Positions 494-27,760 of a stretch of 32,764 nucleotides of DNA are shown piece by piece (positions within the stretch are counted from its first letter, which is position 1; every line of letters starts with the position of its first letter). The notes below the pieces were generated by a model. The model saw only the letters and a list, made by a program, of their open reading frames with translations, did not search any database and was not told where the DNA came from. The stretch lies in assembly GCA_028280565.1 (NCBI GenBank), contig JANQLQ010000068.1, positions 1-32,764 of the forward strand, in the 5' to 3' direction. The translations under genes and the position numbers were made by a program. Origin of the DNA: Fulvivirga sp. Lineage in GTDB: Bacteria > Bacteroidota > Bacteroidia > Cytophagales > Cyclobacteriaceae.

Positions 494-1405
494 TCAACAC
501 AACTTCCGCATCCAGTAAGAGCTGCCCGCCAGCTCACTAAGCTGTACAGGTAAGTCCATAGCCTTTACAATGTACTGCTTCATCTCTTCGTTATTGCAGA
601 GGTAATTATTCGGACAGGTAGTGACATAATTGGACTGGTTGGTCATAAGCATAGTTGCCAATGGGTACTGTTCTGATTCCCAAGCAAACACCCGCTCCGG
701 GGGGTAGTCATAAGGCAAATGGATGTCGTGAATGTGTATGTTAGCATCCTTGGGCAAAAGGGGAAGGATCTCGAGGAAAAACACGGTTACGTCACTGTTC
801 ATAAAACATCGATGAGAACCATCAAAAAATACGAGGTCGTTGGGCTCTAGCGCTTTGAAAAGATCGAGGTCACAATCTTCCAACCCTTTGCGAATAACGG
901 TATCGGACAGGTCATCGATCTCGGCCCTGGGATAAGGGTCTATAGAAGTGATCTTGGTCCGGAGATTAAAGTCCCGGATGGCCTGCTTTACAAATTTGGT
1001 AGAATTTCCCGATCCTATTTCTATGTATTGGGCCGGGTTAGTTTCGGCCAGCTGACAATACAGCACGATGGCATCGAGGCTTGTAAACCAAGGCTGATCC
1101 CAGTAAGGCGCAACATCGTTCTTTTTTTCTACACTGATATTTTTGATTGGGTCGGAGTAGGCGCTGAAACGATCGAATAACTCCTTGTACTCACCAAGCT
1201 GCGCTGCAAATATGGCATCGATATACTGGAGCTTGGGTTTGAAATAGCCATACCGTGGCTTTTGATTCACCGGGTATTTCAAAAATATCGGGAACCAATT
1301 TCTCATGATCCCCCGGGCCACCTCGTTTTTGTATGGGTAAGACAGGAAATTCTTGGAAAACTTTATTGATTTAGCAAGCATGGGAATGATTTTCGTTATT
1401 TTCAA
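494..1405 (-). CDS. Class I SAM-dependent methyltransferase
   Basis: This is probably a SAM-dependent methyltransferase of the Methyltransf_24 type, acting in the cytoplasm on a sugar or polysaccharide precursor; the substrate cannot be read from sequence. Visible evidence is the glycine-rich motif I YIEIGSGNST at about residues 127-136, followed by a Rossmann-like region with SIDPYPR and the acidic strand LVFFDGSHR at about 191-199. No signal peptide or membrane segment is seen. The longest reading frame begins with TTG and overlaps the stop of the upstream tyrosine kinase gene as TTGA, a four-base coupling. An ATG eight codons in (1381) is the alternative start. It is the last gene of the minus-strand export operon, which supports a role in decorating the exported glycan. 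The family assignment is fairly secure; the role is inferred from position. Confidence 0.75.
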   Translation of the reverse strand: MKITKIIPMLAKSIKFSKNFLSYPYKNEVARGIMRNWFPIFLKYPVNQKPRYGYFKPKLQYIDAIFAAQLGEYKELFDRFSAYSDPIKNISVEKKNDVAPYWDQPWFTSLDAIVLYCQLAETNPAQYIEIGSGNSTKFVKQAIRDFNLRTKITSIDPYPRAEIDDLSDTVIRKGLEDCDLDLFKALEPNDLVFFDGSHRCFMNSDVTVFFLEILPLLPKDANIHIHDIHLPYDYPPERVFAWESEQYPLATMLMTNQSNYVTTCPNNYLCNNEEMKQYIVKAMDLPVQLSELAGSSYWMRKLC

Positions 1406-3762
1406 TAGTACATATGACCGTATTCCTTCATTTTGGCGGGCTTTACTCCATTGAAGACGATGTTCACATTTTTGACATTGTCACGCACCAGTGAAGACAT
1501 CGATCGCTCCACCATTTGTTTAGAAGTATAGTTATATCGAAGAACCACCAAGTTGATATCAAAATAAGGTGACATAATAAAGTAATTCGATGACGCCGTA
1601 AACGGGAGTGTATCCACGATGATCACGTCAAATTCCCTTCTAAAAAGCCTGAACAAATTATCCAGCGCTCCCTCCTTTCCTATTAAATTCTGCGCCTCGC
1701 CATTCGGCGGGAAAGACGCAAAATACAAGTTGCTCGAAGAGCTTTTATTCACCAAGCTATCTCGCTCCGTGGGATCAAAACCATTCAAGTGTTTGTTGAG
1801 CTGTATGATATTGTAAGGGTCCTTTTTGTTAGAGAAATAGCGGCTAAGATTTCCCTTGAAAGGATCTGCGTCAATCACTAAGGTTTTTTTACCCGACAGG
1901 GCAAAGGTTTTGGCCAAGTTGATCGAACAAAAGGTCTTCCCTTCTTTGGAATTTAGCGAGGTCACCCCGATCACCTTATGCCCGGGAGATGTATAGAACT
2001 GTTCTAGGTTCACCACTAAGAACTGGAAAGGCTCTAGGGTGAATTTTTTATGGGTAGCCACCCCTACTTTATACCATTTTTTCCCGTAATCCTGTATCGT
2101 GCCAATGATACGGTTATCGGTCAATTCTTTGATCTCGTCCTTATCCACGATGCTTTGCTTAAAAAATAAATGCCCGATAATGACCATCAACGGGATAGCG
2201 AAGCCAAGGACCAAGGCTGCCGCCAAGATCAATTTCTTATTGGGCGAAACCGGCGCATTGCTGGTAAGTCGAGCGTAGTCCACCACCGTTTTATCCGATA
2301 GGTTAGAAGCTATAGCGATACTGGCCTCTGCCCGCCTTTCTAACAGGTAATTATAAAGATTATCGTTCAGGTCAAACTTTCTTTCGATGTTGATCAGGTC
2401 CCGCTCACTTTCGGGGAGCTGGTTCAATTGTCTTGACAGGACATTGATCCTCCGCCTATTATCCGCAATGGCCAAATCGGAAGAAATGATCAGGTTATTG
2501 ATGTTCTCAAAGAGGTTCTCCTTGATGGTGCTGATCTTTCTCTCTAAAACCTTAAGTACCGGGTTGTTTTCATTCGAACTGTAGGATTTTTCAATTTTCT
2601 CCTTGTTCAATTCTGACAGTTGGATCAGCAGGTTATTCAGGAAAGGGTCATGGACATCTACGGATGAAGGGGCCACCACGTCGATCACCGCCTCATCGCG
2701 CTTAAGATTGGCCAGGGTATTTTTAAAATAGGAATTTTGTACCCTCAGCCTTGCTTGGTCCTCTTCCAACTCCTGTAGTTGCTGGGTCAAATTCTCAGAG
2801 GTCGTAGGAATATCAATGATCTGGTTAGAAGCCCGGAACGACTGTAAATTACTCTCCACATTCTTTAAGGAATCATAGACCAGGCCCAGCTGGCCATCCA
2901 GGAATTCAATGGTCTTTAACCCCAGCCGGTTCTTTTTCTCCAGGTCGTTTTGAATGTACACATCGACCAGGGTGTTTATAAAATTGACCCCGCGGTCGGG
3001 CAGTGGACTCGTATACGCCACGTTGACGATATTCGACTCCTTGGAAATAGGAGATATTTTAAGTTTATCCGAATACTTTTTGGTGACTTGATCGAGACTG
3101 TTCACCACGAAAAAATAGGGGTCGTCATAATTGATGCCCATAGAATCCACCACGAGCTGGAAGGATAAATAAGGGCTGGTATATGCGCTGTCTATGGGAA
3201 CAGTCTCGCTGATCTCCACGGTAATATTTTTTGCCAGCAGCTCGTCTTGCTGAATGTCGAATACCTTGGCATTTTCGCTCTCAAAAGTGACGGTGTAGTA
3301 ATACGGGTCTAAAAACTTAACGTAAACAGGCACATTGATCATCTGGGGCTGGCTCTCGTCAAGGATCACCCCAAAGGGCGCCTGCAAGACTTCTTCCGGG
3401 AACTCGACGGCCCCTAAGATCGAGGGGCTTTTGAAGTAGCTAACCGTAACGTCGAGTCTTTCCAATGCCTGTTTGATCATGGAAAAAGAAGACAAAATAC
3501 CGATCTCGTCTTCCAGCTCGGCATTTCCTACCACGAGCTCTAACCCGGTAAAAAACTTATTCTTATCGGAAGGTCTTTTTTCAGATACGCTGATATCCTT
3601 GAGTTGAACTTTAGCGGCCACCTGGTACTGCCCGGGCGTTGTGCGTAAATAAAGGACCGCTAGCAAAAGGCAAATGGACACGCTCACGGCAAAAAAGAGC
3701 CATTTTGATAACAGGTAATCTACTATCCTCTTGATATCGATGTAGTTGTTATCTCTCTGCAT
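1402..3762 (-). CDS. wzc: Wzc-type polysaccharide co-polymerase and tyrosine autokinase
   Basis: This is an inner-membrane protein that controls chain length and export of the polysaccharide and phosphorylates its own C-terminal tyrosines. Domains in order are an N-terminal cytoplasmic stub with a first membrane segment (about 18-38), a Wzz-like periplasmic region, a long coiled coil (about 270-460), a second membrane segment (about 510-532) and a cytoplasmic BY-kinase domain. The kinase shows Walker A SLNSKEGKT, Walker A' VIDADPFKG and Walker B VIIVDTLPF. The first glycine of the usual Walker A is not conserved. The tail carries only three tyrosines (EYGHMYY; Y781, Y785 and Y786), fewer than in many relatives. 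The gene starts with ATG 11 bases after the Wza-type gene and overlaps the methyltransferase start. No low-molecular-weight phosphatase partner (Wzb or CpsB) is in the window. Confidence 0.93.
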   Translation of the reverse strand: MQRDNNYIDIKRIVDYLLSKWLFFAVSVSICLLLAVLYLRTTPGQYQVAAKVQLKDISVSEKRPSDKNKFFTGLELVVGNAELEDEIGILSSFSMIKQALERLDVTVSYFKSPSILGAVEFPEEVLQAPFGVILDESQPQMINVPVYVKFLDPYYYTVTFESENAKVFDIQQDELLAKNITVEISETVPIDSAYTSPYLSFQLVVDSMGINYDDPYFFVVNSLDQVTKKYSDKLKISPISKESNIVNVAYTSPLPDRGVNFINTLVDVYIQNDLEKKNRLGLKTIEFLDGQLGLVYDSLKNVESNLQSFRASNQIIDIPTTSENLTQQLQELEEDQARLRVQNSYFKNTLANLKRDEAVIDVVAPSSVDVHDPFLNNLLIQLSELNKEKIEKSYSSNENNPVLKVLERKISTIKENLFENINNLIISSDLAIADNRRRINVLSRQLNQLPESERDLINIERKFDLNDNLYNYLLERRAEASIAIASNLSDKTVVDYARLTSNAPVSPNKKLILAAALVLGFAIPLMVIIGHLFFKQSIVDKDEIKELTDNRIIGTIQDYGKKWYKVGVATHKKFTLEPFQFLVVNLEQFYTSPGHKVIGVTSLNSKEGKTFCSINLAKTFALSGKKTLVIDADPFKGNLSRYFSNKKDPYNIIQLNKHLNGFDPTERDSLVNKSSSSNLYFASFPPNGEAQNLIGKEGALDNLFRLFRREFDVIIVDTLPFTASSNYFIMSPYFDINLVVLRYNYTSKQMVERSMSSLVRDNVKNVNIVFNGVKPAKMKEYGHMYY

Positions 3763-3773: not shown

Positions 3774-4559
3774 CTAGTTATCATCGAGGTATGACAGGAT
3801 CAAAAGCGTAGAAGAAACCGCCCCAAAGACTATACTGGACAGTGTAAAGGTATTTAGGTTATTCCTTGTATTCTTTGCTTTAAGGGGCTGCACATACACA
3901 ACATCGTTGGGTTTCAAGTAGTAGTACTCTGAAGCCAGGACCTTGGGATCTTTTAGGTTGACCAAGATCGCCTCGGAACCCTCATCCACCTGGCGGATAA
4001 TGGTGATGTTTTCACGGTTGCCAAAGTCCGTAAGGTCACCTGCCAGCCCCAAGCCCTCTAGCAAAGTGGCCTGGTCATTATAAATGAAGTAGTATCCCGG
4101 GTTATTCACTTCGCCCAGTACGGTGATCTTAAAGCTTACCAGCTTTAGCAGGATGGAGGCATTGCTAAGGTACGGCTGCAGGGTGTTTTTTACCAATTCC
4201 TGCGCTTGGTTCACCGATAGTCCTGCTACCTCGATCTTGCCGGCCTCCGGGAGATCGATGGTCCCGTCCAGGTCAATGGAATAGCTATTGATGTAGAACC
4301 CCGGGTTGGTGAAATTCAAAAGCCCGTTTTCCGGCATGATGTTAAAATAATCCGCCGTCTCTTTGTCCAGGGTCTTTATCCTGATATTCACCACATCCCC
4401 GGGCTGCAAAAAGTAGGTAGAATTTCCATTAGGAATGGCAGTGGGCCGGTTATAATTAAAGGCCGGGTCCGGGAAATAGATCACTTTTTTGTTAGGAATG
4501 CATGAGCAAAGAAATAGCGCTGTGACAATGTATAGCCCGATTTTAAGGTCAATCTTCAT
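3774..4559 (-). CDS. wza: Wza-type polysaccharide export lipoprotein
   Basis: This outer-membrane export protein partners the adjacent Wzc-type kinase. A lipoprotein signal ends at Cys20 (LFLCSC). The mature protein begins IPNKK, without an acidic cluster after the cysteine, which fits retention on the periplasmic face. The Poly_export domain opens at about residue 48 with YFLQPGDVVNIRI, and an SLBB-like segment follows (ITVLGEVNNPGYY at about 144-156). The C-terminus has a hydrophobic segment (about 238-257) ending in LDDN, as in Bacteroidota homologues with a C-terminal membrane helix. At 261 residues it is shorter than E. coli Wza, as is usual in this phylum. It starts with ATG 42 bases after the one-TIG lipoprotein gene and is probably in the same operon. 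Confidence 0.93.
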   Translation of the reverse strand: MKIDLKIGLYIVTALFLCSCIPNKKVIYFPDPAFNYNRPTAIPNGNSTYFLQPGDVVNIRIKTLDKETADYFNIMPENGLLNFTNPGFYINSYSIDLDGTIDLPEAGKIEVAGLSVNQAQELVKNTLQPYLSNASILLKLVSFKITVLGEVNNPGYYFIYNDQATLLEGLGLAGDLTDFGNRENITIIRQVDEGSEAILVNLKDPKVLASEYYYLKPNDVVYVQPLKAKNTRNNLNTFTLSSIVFGAVSSTLLILSYLDDN

Positions 4560-4601: not shown

Positions 4602-5768
4602 TTACAAACGTACTAAATGACCATGGTTGATAGGTTGAAAGAGTATTTCCGGTTGTGCATTTTCTTTATCCAGGGATAGGCGTAAGATACCCCCGTCAGC
4701 ATAATTGTTGTTGTTTGCCCCGCGAGAGTTCATCCAGTAAAGGTTACGGTTTCCCTGGTCTACAAAAATGGACAGTATGTTCTCCCCTATGCCATCATCA
4801 GAATGAAACAATTTCTCCAGCTCATTCTTACCGGCAACGCTTCCAGTCATGATCCTGGAATCGCCAAATGTAGGGGTGTCTGCAATGTAAACCGTCCCAT
4901 TTTGTTTGTCTATGGTAAAATCAACGGGCCTTTTTAACCCATTTTCACCACCAAACAGGACCGCCGGTTCCGACTTCTCGTTGATATCAGCTTTCATGAT
5001 CTGCCCCAGGTCAGCCTCTGCCCAGTAGATGATCTCATTTTCCAAGTCCATTTCAATACTTTTTGGCCGTATCCTTTCGGCATATAGGGTCTCATGAGAA
5101 GTAGAGTCCTTTAAATTTACCCGGCCGATTGAATTTTGATTAGCGTAGTAAAGCCATTGATCATTGCCCAGGCAAATATCCTCCAGGCCCTCCCCAAGGG
5201 TCATGATCACTTCGGGCGCTTTACCTTCTCCGTCCAGGTCCATTTTATAAATAGTGCCATAAAAATTACCATAGTAAAGCACATTGTTGGCCTGGTCTAT
5301 TTCCAGCCCTCTTGTAAATGCACTTTCCACCAACAGCTCCATGGAAATACCATCCTCGGTCATGATCCCCCTGTATATCTCGTGCTGTGTCCAATAAACA
5401 GCGGGCACATTTCCCGGGACCGGTAAAACCGTGCAGGATACCGCGTTAGAATAAAACCGGGAATCACTACTGGTCACTTTCAGCCGTGATGTTTCGGCGG
5501 CCATCTTGGGCACCTTTATCCTCAGTGACATGGACGATTTGAAATCAACGGAATCTACTTCAACATCTCCAATGTATACTTTTGACTGGTCAGAAAAATT
5601 CGCGCCATAGATAGTCACAAATGTGCCGGGCATTGCTCTATTGGGATGTATTTCCGAAATAGCGATATCCGAATTTCCCTTCAATTCCCCTGTTTGATCT
5701 TTTTCTTTAGAAGAATTACAAGCCCATACTGCAAGGGTAAAAACAACGAGTACTAATAGTCGATCCAT
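4602..5768 (-). CDS. Lipoprotein with one IPT/TIG domain and a YWTD-like beta-propeller
   Basis: This is a probable surface lipoprotein of unknown ligand. The longest frame extends to 5855 and overlaps the sulfotransferase gene, but the ATG at 5768 gives a clean lipoprotein signal ending LAVWAC (Cys17), so that start is chosen. The mature N-terminus NSSKEKDQ has charged and acidic residues just after the cysteine, resembling the lipoprotein export signal for surface display in Bacteroidota. One TIG domain spans about residues 37-113 (begins IHPNRAMPG, with VTIYGANF). From about 120 to the end, repeated blades carry YW or YY motifs (VYWTQ, LYYGN, LYYAN, IYWAE, VYIAD, LYWMN), suggesting a six-bladed YWTD/NHL-type propeller. 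It is paralogous to 6551-8365 and 8378-9976 and lies just upstream of wza. Confidence 0.8.
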   Translation of the reverse strand: MDRLLVLVVFTLAVWACNSSKEKDQTGELKGNSDIAISEIHPNRAMPGTFVTIYGANFSDQSKVYIGDVEVDSVDFKSSMSLRIKVPKMAAETSRLKVTSSDSRFYSNAVSCTVLPVPGNVPAVYWTQHEIYRGIMTEDGISMELLVESAFTRGLEIDQANNVLYYGNFYGTIYKMDLDGEGKAPEVIMTLGEGLEDICLGNDQWLYYANQNSIGRVNLKDSTSHETLYAERIRPKSIEMDLENEIIYWAEADLGQIMKADINEKSEPAVLFGGENGLKRPVDFTIDKQNGTVYIADTPTFGDSRIMTGSVAGKNELEKLFHSDDGIGENILSIFVDQGNRNLYWMNSRGANNNNYADGGILRLSLDKENAQPEILFQPINHGHLVRL

Positions 5769-5784
5769 AGCTTTAAATTTGAAA

Positions 5785-6438
5785 TCAGTTGGTTTGAAGC
5801 AATGATGGTATTGAATAATTAAAGCGTTCAATATCTTCCCTAAACCCCTCGGCAACCATTTTTAACGACTTTTCAGAGTAATGTTTTAAAAAGTCATGAT
5901 CCGCCCTGCTCCGGTTCAAATGGGGCAGTTCTGCCTCCACTTTAAGCCTTTGGCATACCTTTTCAAAATCGGCATGCAGGTTTTCGAATTTCCCGATAAA
6001 ATCAACCAGCAGGTTACCATCTTCATCACAAAACGCCTTCATCTGCAAGTGCAGGTCATTATTTACCCGCCATTCAATGTATTGATCAAAGCTGGTCATG
6101 TTTTTTATGATCCTGTGCTGAGGATGCTTGTGATTTTTCAGCATGAATGTGTATAACGAAACCTGCCAATCCCACGGGTTACGTACAAAGCCAAATTTGT
6201 AATAAGAGTTAAAGATCCCTACGCCCATCTTTGCTTTAAGCTCCCGGGCGGTGATGTGAAAGGGATATTTAAAAGGGTAATGACCCGGGAGAACACGGGC
6301 TGATTGTAGTGCGCGAATAACCGCATTATTCTTTCGCCGATGCGTATTAGAGTAGGGGTGTAACGCCTTACCTACACTGGATCCCGCCACTTTATAATTA
6401 TGAATAAATATAAAATTTTTGGAGTCAGAGATCAGCAT
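5785..6438 (-). CDS. Sulfotransferase (family 2 type)
   Basis: This is predicted to move a sulfuryl group from PAPS to a carbohydrate. The PAPS-binding loops are visible: the 5'-phosphosulfate loop is YKVAGSS at residues 15-21, a variant of the PKTGGTS-type motif, and the 3'-phosphate loop is VRNPWDWQVS at 85-94. The C-terminus has the usual IGKFENLHADFEKV segment and a final DIERFNY. No signal peptide is seen, so it should be cytoplasmic. At 217 residues it is within the size range of bacterial members. It lies between two TIG-lipoprotein genes in an exopolysaccharide locus, so the likely substrate is the exported glycan or its lipid-linked repeat unit (inference). There are 112 bases upstream and 16 bases before the next gene. 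PAPS synthesis genes are not in the window. Confidence 0.85.
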   Translation of the reverse strand: MLISDSKNFIFIHNYKVAGSSVGKALHPYSNTHRRKNNAVIRALQSARVLPGHYPFKYPFHITARELKAKMGVGIFNSYYKFGFVRNPWDWQVSLYTFMLKNHKHPQHRIIKNMTSFDQYIEWRVNNDLHLQMKAFCDEDGNLLVDFIGKFENLHADFEKVCQRLKVEAELPHLNRSRADHDFLKHYSEKSLKMVAEGFREDIERFNYSIPSLLQTN

Positions 6439-6550
6439 ATATTCCTCGTAATCAATTTTTAACTAGTAAAACTAGGTAATAATCTTTCCTCTAAGGTTAC
6501 CCGAAAATTATCTAATCATAAAAGAAGTAAGAGGCCGCTAGGCTCACCGG

Positions 6551-8365
6551 TCAATCGGGTTCTATCAAGTCAAAATAGATCCCATTCCTGATCCCGGATA
6601 CCAGCACCTGCACCTGTGACGGATCACGGCTCACTGGCGCACTCCGGATACTTCCCTCTTCCTCTTTCACGATCCAATAAAGCGTTTGCCCGTCGCTGGA
6701 CAGTTCCAGGTCAGTGATATGATCTCCTATGCCATCCCCCTGGTCATAGATGGCTTGGAGAGGTGCAGAACCATCCTTAGGTCCTGAAAGGATCACCGAG
6801 TTAGAGCCGGAACCTCCAATTTTTGGCTGGACTGGGAAATGGGCAGCCTTCACCACGTAAAGGTCGGACTCCCCTACCGCAAGAGCAACATATTTATCCG
6901 AAGGATTATCGTTATGATCATTGGAATAAAGGGTATTATCCGCAGGGTTCGTCACATCGAGGGATTTGATCACATTCAGGCCGGACAGTTCGCCGCAGAA
7001 ATAGACCATCCCATCCCTGTATTTCATATTCACTACGCCGTTCCGGGTAAATGAACGCTGCCCCCTGAGTAACGCTTCACTGGCTCCATCCCCTAAATTG
7101 ATTTCCCTGATTTCCGTTTCGCCACTGTATACATAAGCCTGCTGGTTGGCCCTATTTAAAGCAATATCTCCCGTTACCTCATCGCGGACGGCACTCGAGG
7201 TCATGGTTTGCAAGTCTCCTTCAAAAATTTCAAAGATGGTGGTAAAATAGATCTTATCATTCCCCGGGTCCAGTGTTACACCAATGTTGGGGTTGGTCGA
7301 GAGATTCAGTGCATTGATGACACCCCCATCAATGGTAGGTTCGGCTACATACAAGGAGTCGTCTATCCTCACCTGCTGGTCGGGGTCGTTGAGACCTACA
7401 TAATAGAACACCGGCAAGGCCAGCCTTTCTAGCACCGTAAAGGTCAGTGGGTCGGTGGTTAATGCTTCTCCATCATCAGCGATCACTGTTACGGAAACAT
7501 TCACCTCTAAACTGCCAAGCCCTTCTACATCGATCTCCGTAGGGACATTGACCACGATCCTTGTCTCTTCTAATTCTACCAGGTCCGCATCTCGCAAGAT
7601 CTCCCCCCCGAAGTCTACGCTAATACTATCCCGATCCGTTTTAAAACGACTTCCGAATATCTCCACCGTAGCGCCTCCAAATCCTGTAGCAGGACTCATT
7701 GATAACAGCAACGGCCGGTCGGGGTCCAACACGGTGAAGTCAAGCCCGGGCGTGTACACGGTATCCCCCTGTACGAGGATACCCGCAAAGATCTCAACGG
7801 GTCCCGATTCAATTTCTGCGGGAATGACCAAGTCGATTTGACTAAAACTTGCTCCAATGATAGAATCTACTTCAACGGCACCAAAAAATACCACTAACCG
7901 GCTAAGATCGGAGGACAGGTTTTGCCCACGCAGGGATATCTTTTCCCCGGGAAAGCCTACATTAGGCGTTACTGCCGTCAGGGTGGGCGACAGCTGGAAT
8001 GGAACACTGCTGATTGTACTAAAGGGCCCTACAGCAATTTGAAGAGGGCCTATTTGCGCATCTTCGGGAACCACCACGTTCAACTGTTCGCCGGTAGCCG
8101 AAGTGACCCGGGCGGTCACCTGCGAAGATTGGAACTGGATCAAATTCCTGATGGGATCCGGGTTAAAACCACTCCCGAAAAGTTGTATCGTATCTCCACT
8201 GAGGGCAGAGATAGGCTCTATCCTAGTCACGGCGAGGTCATTGGATGATAGGTCCACATCTGTGGCGTCTTCACAGGATAAGAAGACAAACACCCCACAG
8301 GCTAGCAGCCATAGGGCGGACCGGGTCAAGACCAAGGGACAACGTTTCGGAAGAACTCGTATCAT
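6551..8365 (-). CDS. Lipoprotein with three IPT/TIG domains and a YWTD-like beta-propeller
   Basis: This is the largest of three paralogous lipoproteins. A long signal region ends in the lipobox FLSC (Cys31), followed by the acidic EDATDVD, a Bacteroidota-type surface export signal. Three TIG domains follow, at about 45-125 (IEPISALSGDTIQLFGSGF), 127-208 (VTPNVGFPGEKISLRG) and 213-310 (MSPATGFGGATVEIFGSRF). The C-terminal region (about 316-604) has propeller-like repeats (VFYYVG, IYFTT, VYFCG, LYVVK, LYWIV) and a final blade with DGIGDHITDLELSSDG. The middle blades keep the YWTD signature less well than in its sisters. ATG at 8365 is 12 bases from the stop of the upstream paralogue. The ligand is unknown; binding of the cell's own polysaccharide is inferred from position only. 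Confidence 0.8.
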   Translation of the reverse strand: MIRVLPKRCPLVLTRSALWLLACGVFVFLSCEDATDVDLSSNDLAVTRIEPISALSGDTIQLFGSGFNPDPIRNLIQFQSSQVTARVTSATGEQLNVVVPEDAQIGPLQIAVGPFSTISSVPFQLSPTLTAVTPNVGFPGEKISLRGQNLSSDLSRLVVFFGAVEVDSIIGASFSQIDLVIPAEIESGPVEIFAGILVQGDTVYTPGLDFTVLDPDRPLLLSMSPATGFGGATVEIFGSRFKTDRDSISVDFGGEILRDADLVELEETRIVVNVPTEIDVEGLGSLEVNVSVTVIADDGEALTTDPLTFTVLERLALPVFYYVGLNDPDQQVRIDDSLYVAEPTIDGGVINALNLSTNPNIGVTLDPGNDKIYFTTIFEIFEGDLQTMTSSAVRDEVTGDIALNRANQQAYVYSGETEIREINLGDGASEALLRGQRSFTRNGVVNMKYRDGMVYFCGELSGLNVIKSLDVTNPADNTLYSNDHNDNPSDKYVALAVGESDLYVVKAAHFPVQPKIGGSGSNSVILSGPKDGSAPLQAIYDQGDGIGDHITDLELSSDGQTLYWIVKEEEGSIRSAPVSRDPSQVQVLVSGIRNGIYFDLIEPD

Positions 8366-8377
8366 GCCATGCTTTGT

Positions 8378-9976
8378 TTAATCTAGATCAAAGTAATTAC
8401 CCGCCTCCGTATTGAAGATCAGCTCAGCATCCCTTTCGCTGGTCGTAGACCTGCGGTACAATCCACCCACCGCCTCAAAATTGGAATCGCGGGTGTCAAG
8501 CATCCAGTATATAAATTCGCTATCTTCATCAATTTCCATATCGGTGATCCCGGCGTTGAATGCGCCCGTGGTAGCTGACGTATACACTTCTGCCAGTGAA
8601 CCGGTCCCACCCAGGTTACCGCGGTAGATGGTGACCCCATCATTTTCCAGGTCAGCGATGTATAAAGTTTGTGTGGCTACACCCACGGCAATAGCCGTAG
8701 GATTTACCAAGCCATCCGCAGTGCTAAACAACGTTTCAATATCTACCAATGCATTGTTCTCCAAAACACCGTACTGTACACTCCCTGCCGTGGCGTCTAC
8801 CCAATAGAAGTCATTTCCCACGATCTTCAGGTTCACTATTGAACTGCCATCGTTCCTGTAAACAATAGTAGGAGGGCTTCCCGGCAAGCTTCCGTCCACA
8901 TTCAAGTTAAACTGCCGGATATCGCTTCTTCCATTCGTAGCGTAAAGCCGCTGGTTGTTGTTCCCTGCCAGCACGATATCCCTTACACCATTAAGGGTCA
9001 GCTCCCTGGAAAATAGCAGGTTCCCTTCTAAATCAGCCGTGTATATGAAGGTGGAGTTCGCCACGAAACTATTTTGATCCGCCCAATAAATAAGCTCACG
9101 TTCTTTATCGATGGCTATACCAGTAGTAAAGTCAAAATTCGATGCTACAAAATTAGAATCAATGGAGATCAAGCCGTCGTCCAGGCTTCCCTTGCGCATG
9201 GAGTAGGTAGCTAATTGTGGAAAGCCCGTCCAGTAGACCGTGGGCACATCCAGTATGCCGGGCAGGATACTAAAGTTTACCGGCTGCGATAGCAATGTAT
9301 CCCCTCTCTCACTGATCACACCTACCCTCAGATCCGTAGGGCCCGCCGGTATAGAGGGCACCTGCGCGTTGATCAGGATAGAATTAGGAGATATAGCGGC
9401 GTTAATGCCTCCAAACAATACCACCATAGAATCTACGTCGATCTCGCCCCCGGGGGTAGTGATAAAATTCCTGGTACTTACGGATACGAACGAACCCGGC
9501 GCCCCCAGCCTTGGGGTTACGTTCTCTATCACGGGCCGTTTTAATAAACTGATCAGCTCGAATTCTACCGGGCTTGATGCCGTATCCACCCCGAAGAGAA
9601 CATTGACAAATCCCCCAAAGGCTTCATCCGGTACAATGACCTGTAGCTCTTGGAATGAAGCTGAAACTACCTTGGCATACTGCCTGGGAGCGTCAACTTC
9701 AAAAAGGCTGTCTTCAACGATCAGCCCATTATCATCCGGGATACCTTGCACGATGCGCACACCTCCGTCAAACGTTACCTGGTTCTGGTAGGTAACGGGA
9801 TCAAACCCTGTACCCATGATGGTAATGGTATCTCCCCTGAGAGCCCCACGTTCGGGGAAAAACCCCGTTATCCCCAAATTAGGATTACCAACAGGCTCAT
9901 TTTCAATCAATTCACATGAAAACAACCCTACGATCCCTAACACCAATGTCAAAAAACTAATGACGGACTTTTTCAT
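8378..9976 (-). CDS. Lipoprotein with two IPT/TIG domains and a YWTD-like beta-propeller
   Basis: The open frame runs up to 10111, inside the upstream receptor gene, but the ATG at 9976 begins a textbook lipoprotein signal ending GLFSC (Cys21), so the protein is taken as 532 residues. The mature end ELIENEP is acidic. Two TIG domains lie at about 32-140 (ITGFFPERGALRGDTI) and 145-235 (VTPRLGAPGSFVSV). A propeller follows from about 245, with clear blade signatures VYWTG, IYWAD, LYATN, FYWVD, LYIAD and IYWML. The start is one base beyond the stop of the TonB-dependent receptor gene, so translation is probably coupled and the two products probably work together at the outer membrane, in the place a SusD-like protein would occupy in a classical uptake pair (inference). 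Confidence 0.82.
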   Translation of the reverse strand: MKKSVISFLTLVLGIVGLFSCELIENEPVGNPNLGITGFFPERGALRGDTITIMGTGFDPVTYQNQVTFDGGVRIVQGIPDDNGLIVEDSLFEVDAPRQYAKVVSASFQELQVIVPDEAFGGFVNVLFGVDTASSPVEFELISLLKRPVIENVTPRLGAPGSFVSVSTRNFITTPGGEIDVDSMVVLFGGINAAISPNSILINAQVPSIPAGPTDLRVGVISERGDTLLSQPVNFSILPGILDVPTVYWTGFPQLATYSMRKGSLDDGLISIDSNFVASNFDFTTGIAIDKERELIYWADQNSFVANSTFIYTADLEGNLLFSRELTLNGVRDIVLAGNNNQRLYATNGRSDIRQFNLNVDGSLPGSPPTIVYRNDGSSIVNLKIVGNDFYWVDATAGSVQYGVLENNALVDIETLFSTADGLVNPTAIAVGVATQTLYIADLENDGVTIYRGNLGGTGSLAEVYTSATTGAFNAGITDMEIDEDSEFIYWMLDTRDSNFEAVGGLYRRSTTSERDAELIFNTEAGNYFDLD

Positions 9977-9977
9977 A

Positions 9978-12900
9978 TCAGTTAATGGTAAAGGAAAAGC
10001 CAAGCGAATAGTAAGCACCGGGTCTATACGCCACTTCTTCATAATCACGACGAACGTTCCCGCCATTTTGTCCCTCAAATCGAATAGAAGACAGATCAGG
10101 GTCAAAAACATAATTGTTGTCCAGGTCCCTGTAGAAATAGATCCTTTGATTCAATACATTCTGGGCGCCGGCCTTGACCGTAAGCAGGTCCGATATCCTT
10201 TGTTTAAAAACAAGGTCTAGCTGGCCCCGCCTTCCTTCTACCAGGTCGCCGATATTTGGCCCGGCGTTATACTCCCGGATCCTGTCCCAGGTCAAGTTGT
10301 AGATAACCGATAGTAATGTCCCGGATCTAATACTCTCGTAATACAAAGCGCCATTCAGCAAGTAGGGCGATGTGCCCTGGAGCCTTATGGTTTCCAGGTC
10401 ATCCGATACACCGGGAAGACTGTAAATATCACTTAAAGAATAGCGCGCCTCGCTGATTATGTAAGAAGCATTCAAGTTAATTGACATGTTACGCAGCACT
10501 GGATTTTTTAAGAAGTCAAACTTCTTTCTTACCTCTAGCTCCATCCCGAATATTTCCGCTTCCCGCGCATTGGCGTAAAATACGTCCGGGGAACCGTCAT
10601 CACCCGGGGATTCGACAAATCGCTGTATCGGTTTATCAATGAACTTATAAAACCCGCCAATGGACATGAACTCGCCCGAACGAGGGAAAAATTCCAGCCG
10701 TAGGTCACCATGATGGATGAGGGAGTTTTCAATGGTAGGATTACCGGTAAAATCTTCGTTGTTTTCAAAATCGTAAAAGGAAAAGCTTTCCCCGTTCGGA
10801 TCCAGGCTACTCGCCCCGGCCTGTTCCCTGAACTGGGGACGATCCACGGACTGACCGTAGGCCAGTCGTATCGCCAGGTCTCCATCCATGAAATTGTACT
10901 TAAGGTTGGCAGACGGCAAGAGGTAGGTAACGTCCTGGTCAGGAACAGTAACAATTCTCCCGGCAAACCGCGTAGTACTTTCCGTAGGAAGGTTAAACTG
11001 GTCATACAGTACCCGCTTAAAACGGGCATAGCGTACCCCGCCATAGAAAGACAACCTATCGGGGATCAAGGGATAGCTCATACTCGCATAGGCCTCCCGC
11101 GATTCATCGTCGAAAAAATACGCTCCCTGCCCTTGTGGATTGGCCAGGTACAATTGATCCAGGTCGAAATTTTCAGCAGCATATATTGAATCCAATTTAA
11201 GCCAGGGCCTATACACCGGTCCATAGTCTACCGAATTTGGATCTTGCGTACTAAAAATCGCATACCGCTGCGAGAAGAATTCGCGTTCCTTACGATCATA
11301 GAACACTCCCGCTCTCAAGTAGACCTGGCTGGAAAGGTCTAACCTGTAATCCAGCCTGCCTGTCAGCGAGCGCTCTTCGGTCTCAAAAACGTAATGCGAC
11401 TGGAAGGTATCATCGCCGGTGCCTCGGCCCACCCGGACGCTCCAAAAGCCTGCCGAATCATCCTCAATGTTTTGAACGAATAGGAAACGCTGAAGATCCG
11501 GGATGTCATTCCTCGTGATCGAGGACCCCACGGTCCAGTCTATGGAATGCTTATCGTTCAATCGATGGCTACCTCCCAATTGCCCCACGATTATATCACG
11601 TTGCTCATAACGGAACAGGAAGTTTTTGGCGATCTCGTCTTCCTGGGTATTTAGGTCTACCGAAGTACGGTTCAGGACCCGGTCCGTGCCAAACCGGTTG
11701 TAAAATAAGGTAACACTGACATTATGATCATCATTAAACAACAGGCCCAAACTTTGCACAGCGCTGATCCTGATCTGCTCTTCGTGTATAGAGTCCGTAC
11801 CGATAAGATCCGGTCGTTCCAAAAAGAATTGCTGACCTTCACCATTTACCAAGGTATCGGAATCCGGGTTATTATTGACCTGGGAATACACCCCAGCATT
11901 GAACGCACGATCCAAATCCCAAAAAAATCTTTCCTGGGTGTAGCTGGCGGCCGTTAAGTTATTCAAACTCAGCTTGCCGATCTGCCATGAATCATAATAG
12001 CTTATATTGGCTCGCTTATCAAAATCATGCGTATCCTGGGTAGGGGTAAATGTTCTAAAAGAGTTAGACCTGGCAATGGAAAGGTTTTCCAGCGGGTAAT
12101 CATTGATGTTAGGATATTGGAAATACGGTTGGCGCAAAAGCGCCGGCAGGCGGCGATCTCCTGCGCCGTTAGCCATCCAGTCCTTGCTGCTTCCATTGTA
12201 CGTTACAAAATTATTGGTAAAACTGGAGCCCTCGGTTCTTGCTGCACCGGATACATTAATATTGATCTGTCGTGCCTTCGCAAAGTTGCGTGTGTAGATC
12301 TTCATGATGCCTCCTCCCCACATAGCTGGCAAATGCGGGGCCGGTGATTTTTCCAGCTCCATCCGGTCGATAACTCCCGTAGGCAAAGCATCGTAGGAAA
12401 AGGCCCGTGAATTATCTTCTGAACTGGGAGCCACTATGCCATTGATGAGTGTCAGGTTATACCGCGTGTCCAACCCCCGGATGACCACAAACCTATCTAC
12501 CAGTGAAACCCCCGAAATCCGCTGTGCGATCTGGGAAGCGTCACGGTCAACGGACTTTATGATCTGCTCATTTGAGATCCCTGTGATGATCCCCTCGCTG
12601 TACTTGATAGCATTCACCAACTGGATATCCGTAGAATTCCTGATGGGCGAATAGCGGATATCTGCTTTGGCCACCACCACGATCTCATCGAGCTGGGTAG
12701 TAGAAGACTGTAGCTGCACCGTGACGTTCACAAGTATACCCTGTTGTATCTTCACCGCTATTTCCGATGTGGCATATCCCACAAAGGACACTACTAGGGT
12801 CTGGTTGCCTTCTTCCACACCGGAAAGGTAGAAATCACCGCTTAAGCCAGTGATGCTCCCATTTTGAGTGCCCTTGATCACCACGGTGGCTCCTATTAGC

Positions 12901-13040
12901 TCTTCACCGGTCTCTGCGTCCAGCACTTTTCCTGAAATTTCACCTGTGCCGTCTTCCACGGGAGCAAAGGCTAATGCTACCGGGGCGCTTATCATATAAA
13001 ACCAACAATAGAAGAGAGTTACGAGACGAGAAATTATCAT
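9978..13040 (-). CDS. TonB-dependent outer-membrane receptor with CarboxypepD_reg-like domain
   Basis: This is a 22-strand-type outer-membrane channel that takes up or moves a ligand using TonB energy. The N-terminus is a signal peptide ending around ALAFA (about residue 25). A carboxypeptidase-regulatory-like beta-sandwich follows at about 33-115 (ISGKVLDAETGEELIGATV, FVGYAT), then the plug at about 130-265 (with FVVIRGLDTRYNLTLING and GGIMKIYTRN), and the barrel to residue 1020. The protein ends YSLGFSFTIN, not in the aromatic residue typical of many barrels. A TonB box cannot be assigned with confidence. No SusD homologue is adjacent; two TIG/propeller lipoproteins follow instead. It heads the minus-strand operon with the export genes wza and wzc, so it may import breakdown products of the exopolysaccharide or help place it at the surface. 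The substrate is unknown. Confidence 0.9.
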   Translation of the reverse strand: MIISRLVTLFYCWFYMISAPVALAFAPVEDGTGEISGKVLDAETGEELIGATVVIKGTQNGSITGLSGDFYLSGVEEGNQTLVVSFVGYATSEIAVKIQQGILVNVTVQLQSSTTQLDEIVVVAKADIRYSPIRNSTDIQLVNAIKYSEGIITGISNEQIIKSVDRDASQIAQRISGVSLVDRFVVIRGLDTRYNLTLINGIVAPSSEDNSRAFSYDALPTGVIDRMELEKSPAPHLPAMWGGGIMKIYTRNFAKARQININVSGAARTEGSSFTNNFVTYNGSSKDWMANGAGDRRLPALLRQPYFQYPNINDYPLENLSIARSNSFRTFTPTQDTHDFDKRANISYYDSWQIGKLSLNNLTAASYTQERFFWDLDRAFNAGVYSQVNNNPDSDTLVNGEGQQFFLERPDLIGTDSIHEEQIRISAVQSLGLLFNDDHNVSVTLFYNRFGTDRVLNRTSVDLNTQEDEIAKNFLFRYEQRDIIVGQLGGSHRLNDKHSIDWTVGSSITRNDIPDLQRFLFVQNIEDDSAGFWSVRVGRGTGDDTFQSHYVFETEERSLTGRLDYRLDLSSQVYLRAGVFYDRKEREFFSQRYAIFSTQDPNSVDYGPVYRPWLKLDSIYAAENFDLDQLYLANPQGQGAYFFDDESREAYASMSYPLIPDRLSFYGGVRYARFKRVLYDQFNLPTESTTRFAGRIVTVPDQDVTYLLPSANLKYNFMDGDLAIRLAYGQSVDRPQFREQAGASSLDPNGESFSFYDFENNEDFTGNPTIENSLIHHGDLRLEFFPRSGEFMSIGGFYKFIDKPIQRFVESPGDDGSPDVFYANAREAEIFGMELEVRKKFDFLKNPVLRNMSINLNASYIISEARYSLSDIYSLPGVSDDLETIRLQGTSPYLLNGALYYESIRSGTLLSVIYNLTWDRIREYNAGPNIGDLVEGRRGQLDLVFKQRISDLLTVKAGAQNVLNQRIYFYRDLDNNYVFDPDLSSIRFEGQNGGNVRRDYEEVAYRPGAYYSLGFSFTIN

Positions 13041-13488: not shown

Positions 13489-15423
13489 ATGATTTCCATA
13501 ACACCTTTCCATCTTCTTATGCTGATAATCTCAATTCAAGGCCATTGGGATTATGAAAAAAGCGTCTCTCTTTATGACGCTCCTCATACCTATTTTGTAA
13601 GCCCCGAGGGTAACGATTCTAACCCGGGTATGAAGATAGAGGAGCCCCTGCGTACCATTTCGGCAGCTGTAACCAAAATGCAACCGGGTGATACATGTTT
13701 TATCCGGGGAGGGATATATCGTGAAACCATTAAAATAAAGGGGCGCGACCTTACCTTCAAGAACTACAAAAATGAAAAAGTAACGGTGTCCGGGCTGGAC
13801 GTAGTGAAAAATTGGGTCCCATTTGATGGTCAAACTTATAGCGCATACTTTAAACCCTCGGATAAGGAAAATAATCTTTCCATGCCTCGCCATTTAGGAA
13901 ATAGGGGTGGATTATTTACACAGGTTTTTGCCGACGGCGAGCTCATGGAAATCTCAAAATTCCCAAACCAACCTGGCGACCTGCTCCATTGGGAAACCCA
14001 TGGAACGCCTGTCACTGCCTATGTAGACGGTACATTCAAATTTGAAGCCCCGGGAGCTAAAGAGATCCCTCCTCCAAGCTTAGAGGGAGGTATTTTTCAT
14101 GCTATGGTAGACAAAAAGTTTGGGCCGTTACAAGGTGTGGTGGACGATTTTAATGGTGATTCTTTCCGCTGTTCCTGGCGGTCAGAAGGATGGAGAAAAA
14201 GTACCCTTGACCACTTTGTCAAATACCTTTTTACTGCTAAAAACGGGGGCGTCCCCATGGGACGAGGAAGGGGATTTATAGCACATCACTTGGCCGCTAT
14301 AGATAAGGAAAAGGAGTGGTATTGGGATAAACGGCAAAACAAGCTGTACCTAAAGCCTCCAAAGGGTAAAAAACCAAGTCAAATGATCATCGAAGCCAAG
14401 AGCCGGATCAATGCTTTCGTTATCAATTTCTCTCAAAACATCGTGATCAGTGGCATAGATATCAAAGCCGCCGGGGTGGAATTGAATAATTCGACATACT
14501 GCAGGCTGGATCATATGGATATTACCTACCCCGTGCCATTTTATATGCACAATCACGAACTAGGAGGTTATGTGACGGTAAAGATCAAAAATGGAAGTAA
14601 CAATAAATTCACCAACAGCCGAATAGCACACAGCTGGGGCAGCGGGATGACTGTAGAGCTGGGAACAGACCATGAGGTCAGTAACTGCATTATTGAAGAT
14701 GTAAATTGGATGGGTAACTATAACGCGTGTATCAACGTGGGGGGCAGAAATACCAGGGTCGTAAATAATGTACTCAGGAAGTCAGGAAGGTTCATTCTAT
14801 GGGGTATTGGGGTTAAGAAGGGGTGGATCGCCTATAATGATATGTATGATTGCATGAAGATCGGGCAGGATGGAGGTGTTTTCTATACCAATGGGGCGCT
14901 GGGCGATAGCACTGTAATTGCTTACAATTGGATCCATGATGTACACGGCATAACGTACGAAGACTCTAATCGCCCCAATCATAATATTGCCATAGGAGTT
15001 TACCTGGATGGGGGCTGTAGGGACTTCCTCATCCATCATAATGTGATTTGGGGAATGGAACATGCCGTTATACTTTCTCCCGGGCGCAATGGAAAGCTCG
15101 CCCAAGGCAACATTATTATGAACAATACTTGTTATGTCTATGGCAAAGGGTCGATCGTCACCTTCAACCAGCCGGGTATGTATAAGGCCAATGTGTATAA
15201 GAACAATTTGACGAATAAGAAAATAGGCGCTCTTGGCGAGAAGTCAGGAAATCATTGGGACCAGCAAGGGAAATTCATGCCGCTACTTTTTACCGACGGT
15301 GCTTTCAACAAGGGTTCACTGGAACGAGCAAGGGAATTTCCATCCGCCGGCGCCTATGATAAGCCTCCTTTTTGGGTCCCGGGTTTAAAAAAACGGGAAG
15401 GAAAGCCCTCAACTGTGGACTAA
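13489..15423 (+). CDS. Right-handed parallel beta-helix protein, possible polysaccharide lyase or epimerase
   Basis: This is a 644-residue protein with the DUF1565/beta-helix opening typical of bacterial glycan-acting helices: TYFVSPEGNDSNPG at about 34-47, then RTISAAVTKMQPGDTCFIRGG. The later part (about 310-600) is rich in short asparagine/isoleucine repeats (such as NNSTYCRLDHMDI, NNKFTNSRI, NNVLRKSG, AYNWIHDV, NIIMNNTCYVYG) that fit Beta_helix/NosD-type coils. The N-terminus has a hydrophobic stretch (LLMLIISI) that could be a signal peptide, though a weak one. It is the only plus-strand gene within the polysaccharide block, and its stop lies 15 bases inside the 3' end of the convergent O-antigen ligase gene. 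By analogy with AlgG, AlgL or PL6-like helices it may trim or epimerise the exported chain. Catalytic residues could not be identified, so the reaction is open. Confidence 0.75.
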   Translation: MISITPFHLLMLIISIQGHWDYEKSVSLYDAPHTYFVSPEGNDSNPGMKIEEPLRTISAAVTKMQPGDTCFIRGGIYRETIKIKGRDLTFKNYKNEKVTVSGLDVVKNWVPFDGQTYSAYFKPSDKENNLSMPRHLGNRGGLFTQVFADGELMEISKFPNQPGDLLHWETHGTPVTAYVDGTFKFEAPGAKEIPPPSLEGGIFHAMVDKKFGPLQGVVDDFNGDSFRCSWRSEGWRKSTLDHFVKYLFTAKNGGVPMGRGRGFIAHHLAAIDKEKEWYWDKRQNKLYLKPPKGKKPSQMIIEAKSRINAFVINFSQNIVISGIDIKAAGVELNNSTYCRLDHMDITYPVPFYMHNHELGGYVTVKIKNGSNNKFTNSRIAHSWGSGMTVELGTDHEVSNCIIEDVNWMGNYNACINVGGRNTRVVNNVLRKSGRFILWGIGVKKGWIAYNDMYDCMKIGQDGGVFYTNGALGDSTVIAYNWIHDVHGITYEDSNRPNHNIAIGVYLDGGCRDFLIHHNVIWGMEHAVILSPGRNGKLAQGNIIMNNTCYVYGKGSIVTFNQPGMYKANVYKNNLTNKKIGALGEKSGNHWDQQGKFMPLLFTDGAFNKGSLERAREFPSAGAYDKPPFWVPGLKKREGKPSTVD

Positions 15424-16752
15424 TTCCCCGGCACTTCTTTTATTTTTCATTGTGCTGGTACCGGGTCTCGTTTTTACTACTGGATCTGTTTCCAAACCCT
15501 TCCTGACCATTAGGCCGGAGAAAAGGGTAAAGGCTATAAAAGAACCTAAGCTTTGGAAATATACATACCCGTCGACCTGGAAAAGGAAAAGCAAGTAGAC
15601 AATCACGCTGAGCATGATAGCGTCCGGGTGCCCTGTAAGCTGGTAGGACCAGGCACGTTTGATACACTTGTAAAATAAAAGCAACAAGGGTAAGGTACCT
15701 ACCAGCCCAATGGACAACAGGTATTCCAATAAACTACTGTGCATGTGAAATGTAAGGGCACTTGTTTTGTTGTAAAACTCGGCGAGATCATCGAGCAACC
15801 CGATGTAATAGTGACCCGTGACCCCTTTTCCCCATAAAAACCCTTCCCCTTGATTTAGGAACCACTCAATCCCTCTTTCCCATAGATCCCTCCGCCCGTT
15901 AAAGCCAGTTACATCCTCGTAACTCAAACGCCGGATGACGGAGCTTAACAAGGGCAGTTGGAATATCTTGTAGATCAGGTCGGACAAGTTAATAATGATA
16001 GGAATGGTAAAGAATGACAGGATGTATAAAACCGGGTAAAAACTGACCATCCTCGTTACCCGTATGATAACGATCATGATAAAAACCATGATGGACAACC
16101 GGGAGTTAAAGCCTACCATCAAGTAGAGGTTAGTCAAAAACTGGACGAGGGTAAACGCTTTCATCCAGGGATTGTCAATTCCACGGTACCACCTTTCGAT
16201 GATCAAAAGATTGATGATCGCCACGGTATTCGCAGTGGAATAAAAACCGGACGCAAATGGAAAGTTGAGGCGCCCCGGGATGGCATGAACAGCATTGGTT
16301 AAACCCGCCGAATACCCTGCAAAATTCACCAAGATCAGCAGGGTAAGCCCCCAATACAAAATATCGGCTATGCTGAACGCCGGGTCGTCGATATTGTAGA
16401 ACTGTACGATCACCGAGGTACTAAACCAGGCCAGCACAAAAAAGGAAATGGAGAAAATGTTAACGGCATTATAGCCGGGATGACCATGTTGGTAGGCTAC
16501 GAACAAAGCACCCATACACGCCACGGAAAACCATAGCAAGAGTAAGTAATTACCTGATAGCAGGAAATACACGCCCTTCTTGTTAATAATGATATCCAGC
16601 AACCAAATAATGATGATACACAACAACGGGATGAGGCCGATGGCATTGCCTACGGAATAGTTGCCCACTTTCATCAGGTACTTCCCCACCCCGTACATCG
16701 TAAAGCTGGCGAGGTATAAGAAGTTTATGACTTGTACCTTGTTTAACAACAT
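15409..16752 (-). CDS. O-antigen ligase / polysaccharide polymerase (Wzy-like) family membrane protein
   Basis: This 447-residue protein has roughly ten or more hydrophobic segments spread along its length and a larger soluble loop at about 275-325, the layout of the Wzy_C/O-antigen ligase family. That loop contains FNGRRDLWERGIEWF and GKGVTGHYY, and the following segment has FHMHSSLLEYLLSIGLVG; the arginine-rich and histidine positions match those conserved in the family. It would polymerise lipid-linked repeat units, or ligate chains to a lipid, on the outer face of the inner membrane. It is the last gene of the WcaJ-headed operon, 65 bases after the SGNH-like gene, and overlaps the convergent beta-helix gene at its 3' end by 15 bases. 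Sequence alone does not separate polymerase from ligase; the presence of Wzc/Wza favours polymerase. Confidence 0.85.
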   Translation of the reverse strand: MLLNKVQVINFLYLASFTMYGVGKYLMKVGNYSVGNAIGLIPLLCIIIIWLLDIIINKKGVYFLLSGNYLLLLWFSVACMGALFVAYQHGHPGYNAVNIFSISFFVLAWFSTSVIVQFYNIDDPAFSIADILYWGLTLLILVNFAGYSAGLTNAVHAIPGRLNFPFASGFYSTANTVAIINLLIIERWYRGIDNPWMKAFTLVQFLTNLYLMVGFNSRLSIMVFIMIVIIRVTRMVSFYPVLYILSFFTIPIIINLSDLIYKIFQLPLLSSVIRRLSYEDVTGFNGRRDLWERGIEWFLNQGEGFLWGKGVTGHYYIGLLDDLAEFYNKTSALTFHMHSSLLEYLLSIGLVGTLPLLLLFYKCIKRAWSYQLTGHPDAIMLSVIVYLLFLFQVDGYVYFQSLGSFIAFTLFSGLMVRKGLETDPVVKTRPGTSTMKNKRSAGELVHS

Positions 16753-16817
16753 ATAAAATGGGGTCTGTGACCTGGATCTACACTATGTTGTACGCAATAT
16801 AGTACCATTATTAACAA

Positions 16818-17903: not shown

Positions 17904-17906
17904 GGC

Positions 17907-22733: not shown

Positions 22734-22803
22734 AGATCAAACTCGTTAAAAATATGGGTTAGTTACTGGAACTGCGATTAGGCCGGGAGGTAGAAAGTCT
22801 TTC

Positions 22804-23973: not shown

Positions 23974-23983
23974 ACGTATTGCA

Positions 23984-24976: not shown

Positions 24977-24984
24977 GGGTTGTT

Positions 24985-26865: not shown

Positions 26866-27059
26866 TGGCTAAAGGTGTTTAACGCATGCACCGAATACTC
26901 ACAGCCTGGTAAGTGATAGGGTGATCATGTCATGTGGTCTAAAGGATCTAGCAGCGTATCTATGTCATTGAAAAAGAGGTGACAGGTCCACGATCAAAGC
27001 CGTGGCGCAAGGCCTTGTACACCTCGATAACTCAATACATTGAATAACTAGTCACTAAG
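26866..27059. other. Gap between tssE and tssF
   Basis: No gene is visible in these 194 bases. They contain a stem CCACG/CGTGG (26988-26992 and 27001-27005) next to a perfect 10-base palindrome CAAGGCCTTG at 27008-27017. No TAnnTTTG box is present on the minus strand. The stems could be a processing or attenuation site within the tssE-tssO arm. Confidence 0.45.
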
Positions 27060-27488: not shown

Positions 27489-27517
27489 ACCAGGAATAAA
27501 TCAATGGATTCGTAAAT

Positions 27518-27547
27518 CAAAAATAATTGTAAAAAACTTTTGGGCAA
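27518..27547 (-). promoter_or_regulatory. Bacteroidota-type promoter for the tssE arm
   Basis: On the minus strand a TTG (27547-27545) is followed after exactly 19 bases by TATTTTTG (27525-27518), an exact match to TAnnTTTG. This is the consensus layout of the primary sigma factor in Bacteroidota. Transcription would start about 23 bases before the TTG start codon of tssE. Good by pattern, untested. Confidence 0.6.
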
Positions 27548-27729: not shown

Positions 27730-27760
27730 AAGTCTAAAGTATCCAGAATGAAACCCCTGT

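Follow-up and report, generated by a model that had tools for sequence, protein, structure and literature searches.

Organization of the locus

The window analyzed here is the whole 32,764-bp contig C35 of a Fulvivirga sp. genome (9.05 Mb, 337 contigs). It carries genes for a TonB-dependent receptor (TBDR) and three lipoproteins with TIG domains and a propeller, designated TIG1, TIG2, and TIG3, and this set sits within an exopolysaccharide (EPS) gene cluster. The genes follow one another on the minus strand in the order TBDR, TIG1, TIG2, sulfotransferase, TIG3, wza, wzc, and methyltransferase (Table 1), separated by 1, 12, 112, 16, 42, 11, and -4 bp, and no terminator-like sites were found on that strand in the gaps from the TBDR gene to the methyltransferase gene. 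The one-base and twelve-base spacings behind the TBDR gene agree with those given in a first-pass annotation of the window. That annotation also had the lipoprotein genes running into wza and wzc; both do follow TIG3, but the sulfotransferase gene, 112 bp from TIG2 and 16 bp from TIG3, had been overlooked.

The Pfam matches included the initiating transferase, Wzy, Wza, and Wzc that characterize a Wza/Wzc-dependent EPS cluster, and no flippase family was among the Pfam matches on the contig. Beyond a divergently transcribed beta-helix gene, the minus strand continues with wzy, a gene without a Pfam match, and the genes for MBOAT, WecG, and the initiating transferase; at the methyltransferase side the contig ends. 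The G+C content of the TBDR-TIG1-TIG2 stretch was 0.48 to 0.50, and that of the flanking EPS genes was 0.41 to 0.47. Type VI secretion genes (22221-32179; TssO, TssF, ClpV-like, a weak VipA match, and TssC) adjoin the EPS cluster.

Table 1. Features of the TBDR/TIG set and the surrounding EPS gene cluster
Feature	Coordinates	Strand	Basis or remark
Methyltransferase (Methyltransf_24)	494-1405	minus	Pfam; 4-bp overlap with wzc
wzc, Wzc-type chain-length/tyrosine kinase	1402-3762	minus	Wzz, GNVR, AAA_31
wza, Wza-type outer-membrane polysaccharide exporter	3774-4559	minus	Pfam Poly_export, SLBB
Lipoprotein TIG3: 1 TIG, YWTD-type propeller	4602-5768	minus	Pfam, PDB sequence match; weak surface signal
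Sulfotransferase (Sulfotransfer_2), 217 aa	5785-6438	minus	Pfam PF03567, E = 5.1e-12
Lipoprotein TIG2: lipobox Cys, 3 TIG, propeller	6551-8365	minus	Pfam, AlphaFold2, Foldseek; surface exposure predicted
Lipoprotein TIG1: lipobox Cys, 2 TIG, propeller	8378-9976	minus	Pfam, AlphaFold2, Foldseek; surface exposure predicted
TBDR, 1020 aa	9978-13040	minus	Pfam CarboxypepD_reg + Plug
Right-handed beta-helix protein	13489-15423	plus	Divergent from TBDR; Pfam Beta_helix just under cut-off
Wzy-type polymerase/ligase	15409-16752	minus	Pfam Wzy_C
MBOAT O-acyltransferase of polysaccharide cluster	17907-19337	minus	Pfam
WecG/TagA glycosyltransferase	19481-20263	minus	Pfam
Initiating sugar-phosphate transferase	20301-21728	minus	Pfam Bac_transf

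TIG/propeller lipoproteins

As the first reading of the window had counted, the lipoproteins contain two, three, and one TIG domains (PF01833) in transcription order, each protein scoring above the cut-off. The AlphaFold2 models of TIG1 and TIG2 had mean pLDDT values of 81.0 and 78.9, respectively, and the last domain of each model consists of 24 strands, which we read as six four-stranded blades. In Foldseek searches these models matched YWTD propellers of the low-density lipoprotein receptor (LDLR)/LRP/ROS1 type (ROS1, megalin, LRP4, and LRP6). By sequence alone, TIG1 and TIG2 had no propeller match in the PDB at E ≤ 0.01; the TIG3 propeller matched LRP2 (E = 6.1e-18), and a profile built from 13 TIG/propeller proteins matched Bacteroides TIG-propeller structures as well as YWTD propellers of the LDLR/LRP type. 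The two models and the LRP2 match bear out the earlier suggestion that all three proteins carry a propeller.

The Bacteroides structures are those of "auxiliary nutrient binding" proteins (3tc9 [BT_3476], 4hw6 [BACOVA_00264], 3kya, and 3hrp), in which, as in the window, TIG is followed by a propeller. They differ in having one TIG domain (by eye), in sharing 11 to 15% identity, and in their low scores in structural alignments. Foldseek matched the models to 3tc9 and 4hw6 with TM-scores of 0.25 to 0.41 and root mean square deviations of 12 to 21 Å, which indicates that the kinds of domain are alike but their overall arrangement is not. The description of the three lipoproteins as paralogous holds in that they are related, although distantly, the TIG2 and TIG3 propellers being 24 to 27% identical to that of TIG1. 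No close orthologue of the window propellers was found; all three are distant from each other and from their relatives, and TIG2 has an end branch of 2.81 in the propeller tree.

Acidic residues clearly follow the lipid cysteine in TIG1 (CELIENE) and TIG2 (CEDATDV). TIG3 (CNSSKEKD) has a single acidic residue in positions +2 to +7, a weak surface signal, so that the acidic or charged residues ascribed to all three lipoproteins at the outset are clear in two of them. In Wza, which had been described as lacking them, the residues after the cysteine are basic (CIPNKKV), as in most of 20 other Wza proteins (by eye).

The receptor and its regulation

The window TBDR matched the SusC/RagA model TIGR04056 (NCBIfam) with 70.2 bits against a cut-off of 368.25, the best stretch being residues 34 to 126. 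SusD, described as missing in the first-pass annotation, was indeed not found among the Pfam matches of the 20 window proteins scanned; a scan of the same kind did reveal SusD at a locus of the same genus, L060. With the TBDR far under the SusC/RagA cut-off and no SusD family in the window proteins, a SusCD system was rejected, although the combination of a TBDR with surface lipoproteins is common to both. At L060 (G001:C265) two propeller-like lipoproteins come after a SusCD pair, and the one scanned contains PKD as well as LDL-receptor class B repeats. Propellers of such a type thus also accompany classical SusCD.

The receptor is 29 to 37% identical to its relatives, and in the tree it groups with eight receptors of the Fulvivirga sediminis/Reichenbachiella/Tamlana group (support, 100/99). 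All eight carry an STN domain. With an STN profile made from four TBDRs, the domain was detected in 17 of 22 TBDRs, and FecR was encoded upstream of all 17. Neither STN nor FecR was present in the window or at L036, L054, and L057, and L056 has FecR without an STN match; STN and FecR thus go together across the 22 loci, with no FecR at four of the five loci whose receptor gave no STN match. Upstream of the window TBDR start, the three minus-strand frames gave no STN match better than E = 0.46. Receptors of the wider family are shorter (938 to 969 amino acids), and a scan of one of them (L045) detected no STN.

A recurrent module in Bacteroidota

Judged by sequence, the window TBDR is a member of a module that recurs in Bacteroidota and is made up of an extracytoplasmic function (ECF) sigma factor, FecR, a TBDR, a beta-helix lipoprotein, and one or more TIG/propeller lipoproteins. 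The window has a TBDR of this group and TIG/YWTD propeller lipoproteins downstream of it; it has neither a beta-helix lipoprotein gene directly after the TBDR gene nor the FecR and STN pair. TBDR searches gave matches in 43 of 98 related genomes at E ≤ 1e-60 and in 12 of 295 family genomes, own genome included, at E ≤ 1e-120.

Gene maps of 22 distinct TBDR-group loci, the window included, were compared, after loci that proved to be the same had been merged (L094 with L051, L032 with L049, L034/L035 with L050, L052 with L036, and L055 with L038). The 21 other loci were picked by TBDR similarity rather than at random, L096 and L099 share a genome, and the mapped sequence extends 4.5 to 15.6 kb on the downstream side and 1.1 to 9.9 kb on the upstream side. 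A propeller lipoprotein was encoded at 19 of the 21 (all but L054 and L056; at L056, Pfam detected one TIG and one TEN_NHL protein). Seven loci of this set (L031, L049, L050, L036, L037, L051, and L053) had supplied part of the propeller profile, and among the remaining 14 the count was 12. This recurrence gives good support to the earlier suggestion of a surface assembly of TBDR and propeller lipoproteins in place of SusD.

FecR was found at 18 of the 21 loci (all but L036, L054, and L057) and the beta-helix lipoprotein at 19 (all but L053 and L056). Ten of the 21 loci had contributed to the beta-helix profile, and 9 of the 11 outside that set (L053, L056, and L095 to L103) had the lipoprotein. 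In a second set of 30 TBDR loci (L001 to L030), those taken from the 47 matches listed in the 98-genome search, the beta-helix lipoprotein gene lay directly downstream of 27, the window being among the three without it; among the 22 of these loci that were not used for the beta-helix profile, it did so in 19. TBDR followed by beta-helix lipoprotein is therefore a strongly conserved pair, and since 27 of 30 receptors have this partner, its absence from the window looks derived. Pfam assigned no family to two full-length beta-helix lipoproteins, and the family profile had no PDB relative by sequence. With a simple open reading frame caller, a gene may be masked by a frame on the other strand, as happened with the beta-helix gene of L112, which was missed there and found in the same locus under L014. 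In the wider family, a gene of about 180 to 200 codons follows in 12 of 21 maps, and a lipobox was seen in two of these.

The propellers themselves were rarely detected. The propeller profile matched, own genome included in each case, 9 of the 98 relatives at E ≤ 1e-20, 7 of 390 genomes of the order at E ≤ 1e-30, and 2 of 395 genomes sampled from the phylum at E ≤ 1e-35; all three thresholds are strict, the order and phylum searches scored no more than six candidates per genome, and distant propellers such as those of L098 to L103 may fall short of these limits. The weak propeller matches in G001, G025, and G088 and the match in G374 had no TBDR of this group with them; the one in G001 belongs to a SusCD locus that encodes PKD/YWTD lipoproteins.

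The same genome has a second module (L031; G000:C259:1-20000) with FecR, TBDR, beta-helix lipoprotein, and three TIG/propeller lipoproteins, together with a second beta-helix copy, which is shorter (8463-9284). The third beta-helix lipoprotein of this genome stands alone (L107; G000:C47, 8993-10516), about 4 kb from a metallophosphoesterase (14715-18104) with a type IX secretion system (T9SS) tail.

Elsewhere, the module neighbors that were scanned were mainly peptidases, leucine-rich repeat proteins, and phosphatases. A subtilase with a T9SS tail was present at six loci (L032/L049, L051/L094, L095, L096, L097, and L103) and one without the tail at L037; L057 has an alkaline phosphatase alongside on the opposite strand, and L058 has a phosphodiester glycosidase/metallophosphoesterase neighbor. 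Some of these neighbors point to protein or organophosphate sources. None of the 29 neighbors scanned in the wider TBDR/beta-helix family was clearly phosphate related, and the link to phosphate therefore rests on L057, L058, and the gene order of PUSIII (PMC8115612) of Flavobacterium johnsoniae. In that report, PUSIII (Fjoh_3851-3859) is described as comprising a sigma factor, FecR, a TBDR, a polygalacturonase-like lipoprotein FI, and T9SS/lipoprotein genes, and as being induced by phosphate depletion. The likeness to the module is one of order and description; as described there, PUSIII has the sigma factor and FecR, and the window has no sigma factor, FecR, or beta-helix lipoprotein.

Link to wza and wzc

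No wza or wzc homologue was found at the 21 other TBDR loci (BLAST with the window proteins, E ≤ 1e-6, mapped stretches). Conversely, Wza was present in 93 of the 98 genomes, and 20 other wza loci were mapped: three from the same genome, six from the same genus, the ten next-best matches not yet taken, and L105, which was included on account of its sulfotransferase. None of the 20 had a propeller or beta-helix lipoprotein at E ≤ 1e-3, and a related TBDR, distant and about 9 kb from wza, occurred at one of them (L073). Among the loci examined, the link between TBDR/TIG-propeller genes and wza/wzc was thus found in this genome only; a conserved neighborhood of TBDR, TIG-propeller, wza, and wzc genes was looked for there and not found. 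These results do not support a conserved polysaccharide-handling system. Nor do they support the proposal of the first-pass annotation that the assembly binds, retains, or re-imports the cell's own polysaccharide, against which that annotation had itself named a rare pairing of TIG and export genes as telling evidence.

In G097, a TIG lipoprotein of another kind is encoded (L075:3636-4925), with about 6 kb separating it from wza downstream. It has a repeated YWKNG-type motif, which we read as a likely propeller, and its counterpart was missing from the map of the matching stretch in the near relative G082 (L076). No description of an EPS-linked system of this make-up was found in the literature searched, most subscription journals lying outside its coverage.

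Sulfotransferase and divergent beta-helix gene

The best relative of the sulfotransferase (47 to 49% identity) is encoded at L104, where a WecG homologue (67% identity) lies about 3.5 kb away, and a second relative is encoded in a wza-wzc cluster (L105). The surroundings of the third mapped relative (L106) contained no homologue of the window EPS genes. Taken together, the surroundings of these relatives suggest, without proving, that the sulfotransferase gene arrived with the EPS cluster.

The protein encoded divergently from the TBDR scored 25.8 bits against a Pfam Beta_helix cut-off of 25.9, and its N terminus resembles the xylosidase 3vst (E = 6.9e-06). It likely carries a signal peptide (by eye) and is possibly an enzyme acting on the polysaccharide. 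Relatives were found in 3 of the 98 genomes, its own included, at E ≤ 1e-25. It was rejected as the beta-helix lipoprotein of the module, a search of its own genome with the beta-helix profile having given no match in C35.

Interpretation

All parts of the locus are of known kinds; their combination, an uptake module inside an EPS cluster, was found only here. The genes for Wza, Wzc, and Wzy are shared with EPS or capsule clusters dependent on these proteins, in which TIG-propellers are missing (20 other wza loci). The closest known parallels are BtuBG for vitamin B12 and XusAB for a siderophore in Bacteroides. As reported, BtuG and XusB are seven-bladed propeller lipoproteins that act as a lid on the TonB-dependent receptors BtuB and XusA, and neither system is described with a SusD (PMC10404256, PMC13142918). 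The window likewise has a TBDR with an adjacent propeller lipoprotein, for which surface exposure is predicted, and no SusD; DUF4374, the XusB family, was missing from the Pfam matches of the window proteins. The known systems have B12 and siderophores as ligands, and the set in the window differs further in lying beside EPS genes.

By analogy with these systems, we favor the explanation that a lipoprotein-assisted, TonB-dependent capture-and-import module became part of an EPS operon, a reading that we consider to have an even chance of being correct. The parts and their order, the kinship with the module, and the lack of a beta-helix lipoprotein, of the regulators, and of STN were read from the DNA. 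From there, propellers on TIG stalks would catch a ligand at the cell surface and pass it to the TBDR barrel, and TonB energy would pull it in, as in BtuBG and XusAB. With stalks of different lengths, the three propellers may probe the EPS layer at several depths. In the absence of FecI/FecR and STN, expression would be uncoupled from the ligand and follow the EPS genes, which, given the gene spacing, it most likely does. The ligand would most likely be some solute or fragment retained by the EPS layer, similar to what the relatives import, rather than the polysaccharide itself.

Several points weigh against this explanation. The enzyme-like beta-helix gene and the sulfotransferase nearby fit a polysaccharide ligand better. 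BtuG and XusB propellers have seven blades, and the TIG1 and TIG2 models, taken as six-bladed, are of the YWTD type with one to three TIG domains across the set. Cotranscription from the TBDR gene to wzc is read from the gene spacing. The arrangement was found in one genome only, and selection on it is therefore not demonstrated. The end branch of the window TBDR is long (1.72), which makes its placement in the tree unsure. Because of this branch and the short wider-family receptors, the scanned one of which is without STN, loss of STN is indistinguishable from its ancestral absence, and the absence in the window may be ancestral.

A tentative alternative is that the ligand is the polysaccharide of the cell itself, perhaps a sulfated one, which the propellers would tether to the outer membrane or whose fragments, made by the beta-helix protein, would be re-imported through the TBDR. 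The set lies between wzy and wza and is interleaved with the sulfotransferase gene, relatives of which occur near a WecG homologue and in a wza-wzc cluster (two of the three mapped). The divergent beta-helix gene is enzyme-like, and the missing beta-helix partner and strongly diverged propellers, TIG2 above all, would be expected upon a change of ligand. However, the TBDR is not SusC-like, no activity is assigned to the beta-helix protein, whose relatives are few, and the sole glycan-related enzyme among the scanned neighbors of the relatives is the phosphodiester glycosidase domain of L058. Furthermore, none of the 21 other TBDR loci had wza/wzc, and none of the 20 other wza loci had propellers. 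The only direct support for the cell's own polysaccharide as a possible ligand is position in one genome. It seems decidedly unlikely that the set is a dedicated receptor for the cell's own sulfated EPS, in which three LDL-receptor-like propellers of graded stalk length retain or recapture the polymer and the TBDR reclaims fragments; if it were, capsule synthesis, export, tethering, and recycling would be encoded in one operon.

The neighborhood could also be due to chance, an uptake module having been placed in the EPS cluster by rearrangement with both working independently. This would agree with the lack of conservation at other TBDR or wza loci and with the slightly higher G+C content of the TBDR-TIG1-TIG2 stretch than of the EPS genes on either side. 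However, the tight same-strand spacing, with no terminator-like sites in the gaps, and the interleaving of the sulfotransferase and TIG3 genes, which suggests more than a simple one-point insertion, make it rather unlikely. That the TBDR and propellers form a conserved, dedicated accessory to polysaccharide export, for which the neighborhood alone speaks, is highly improbable, because all 20 other wza loci have no propellers or beta-helix lipoprotein and 19 have no related TBDR, so that export in general needs none of these, and because, to our knowledge, TBDRs are importers in all characterized cases.

Lipoprotein-assisted TonB receptors are turning up for vitamins, siderophores, and phosphorus sources, besides glycans. 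To these, the module described here adds a version that recurs, has TIG stalks and six-bladed YWTD-type propellers, and is in most cases controlled by a sigma/FecR switch of its own; in one genome, a switchless form of it lies inside an EPS cluster. If the coexpression is real, this locus would offer a simple test of whether bacteria manage their own capsule with TonB receptors.

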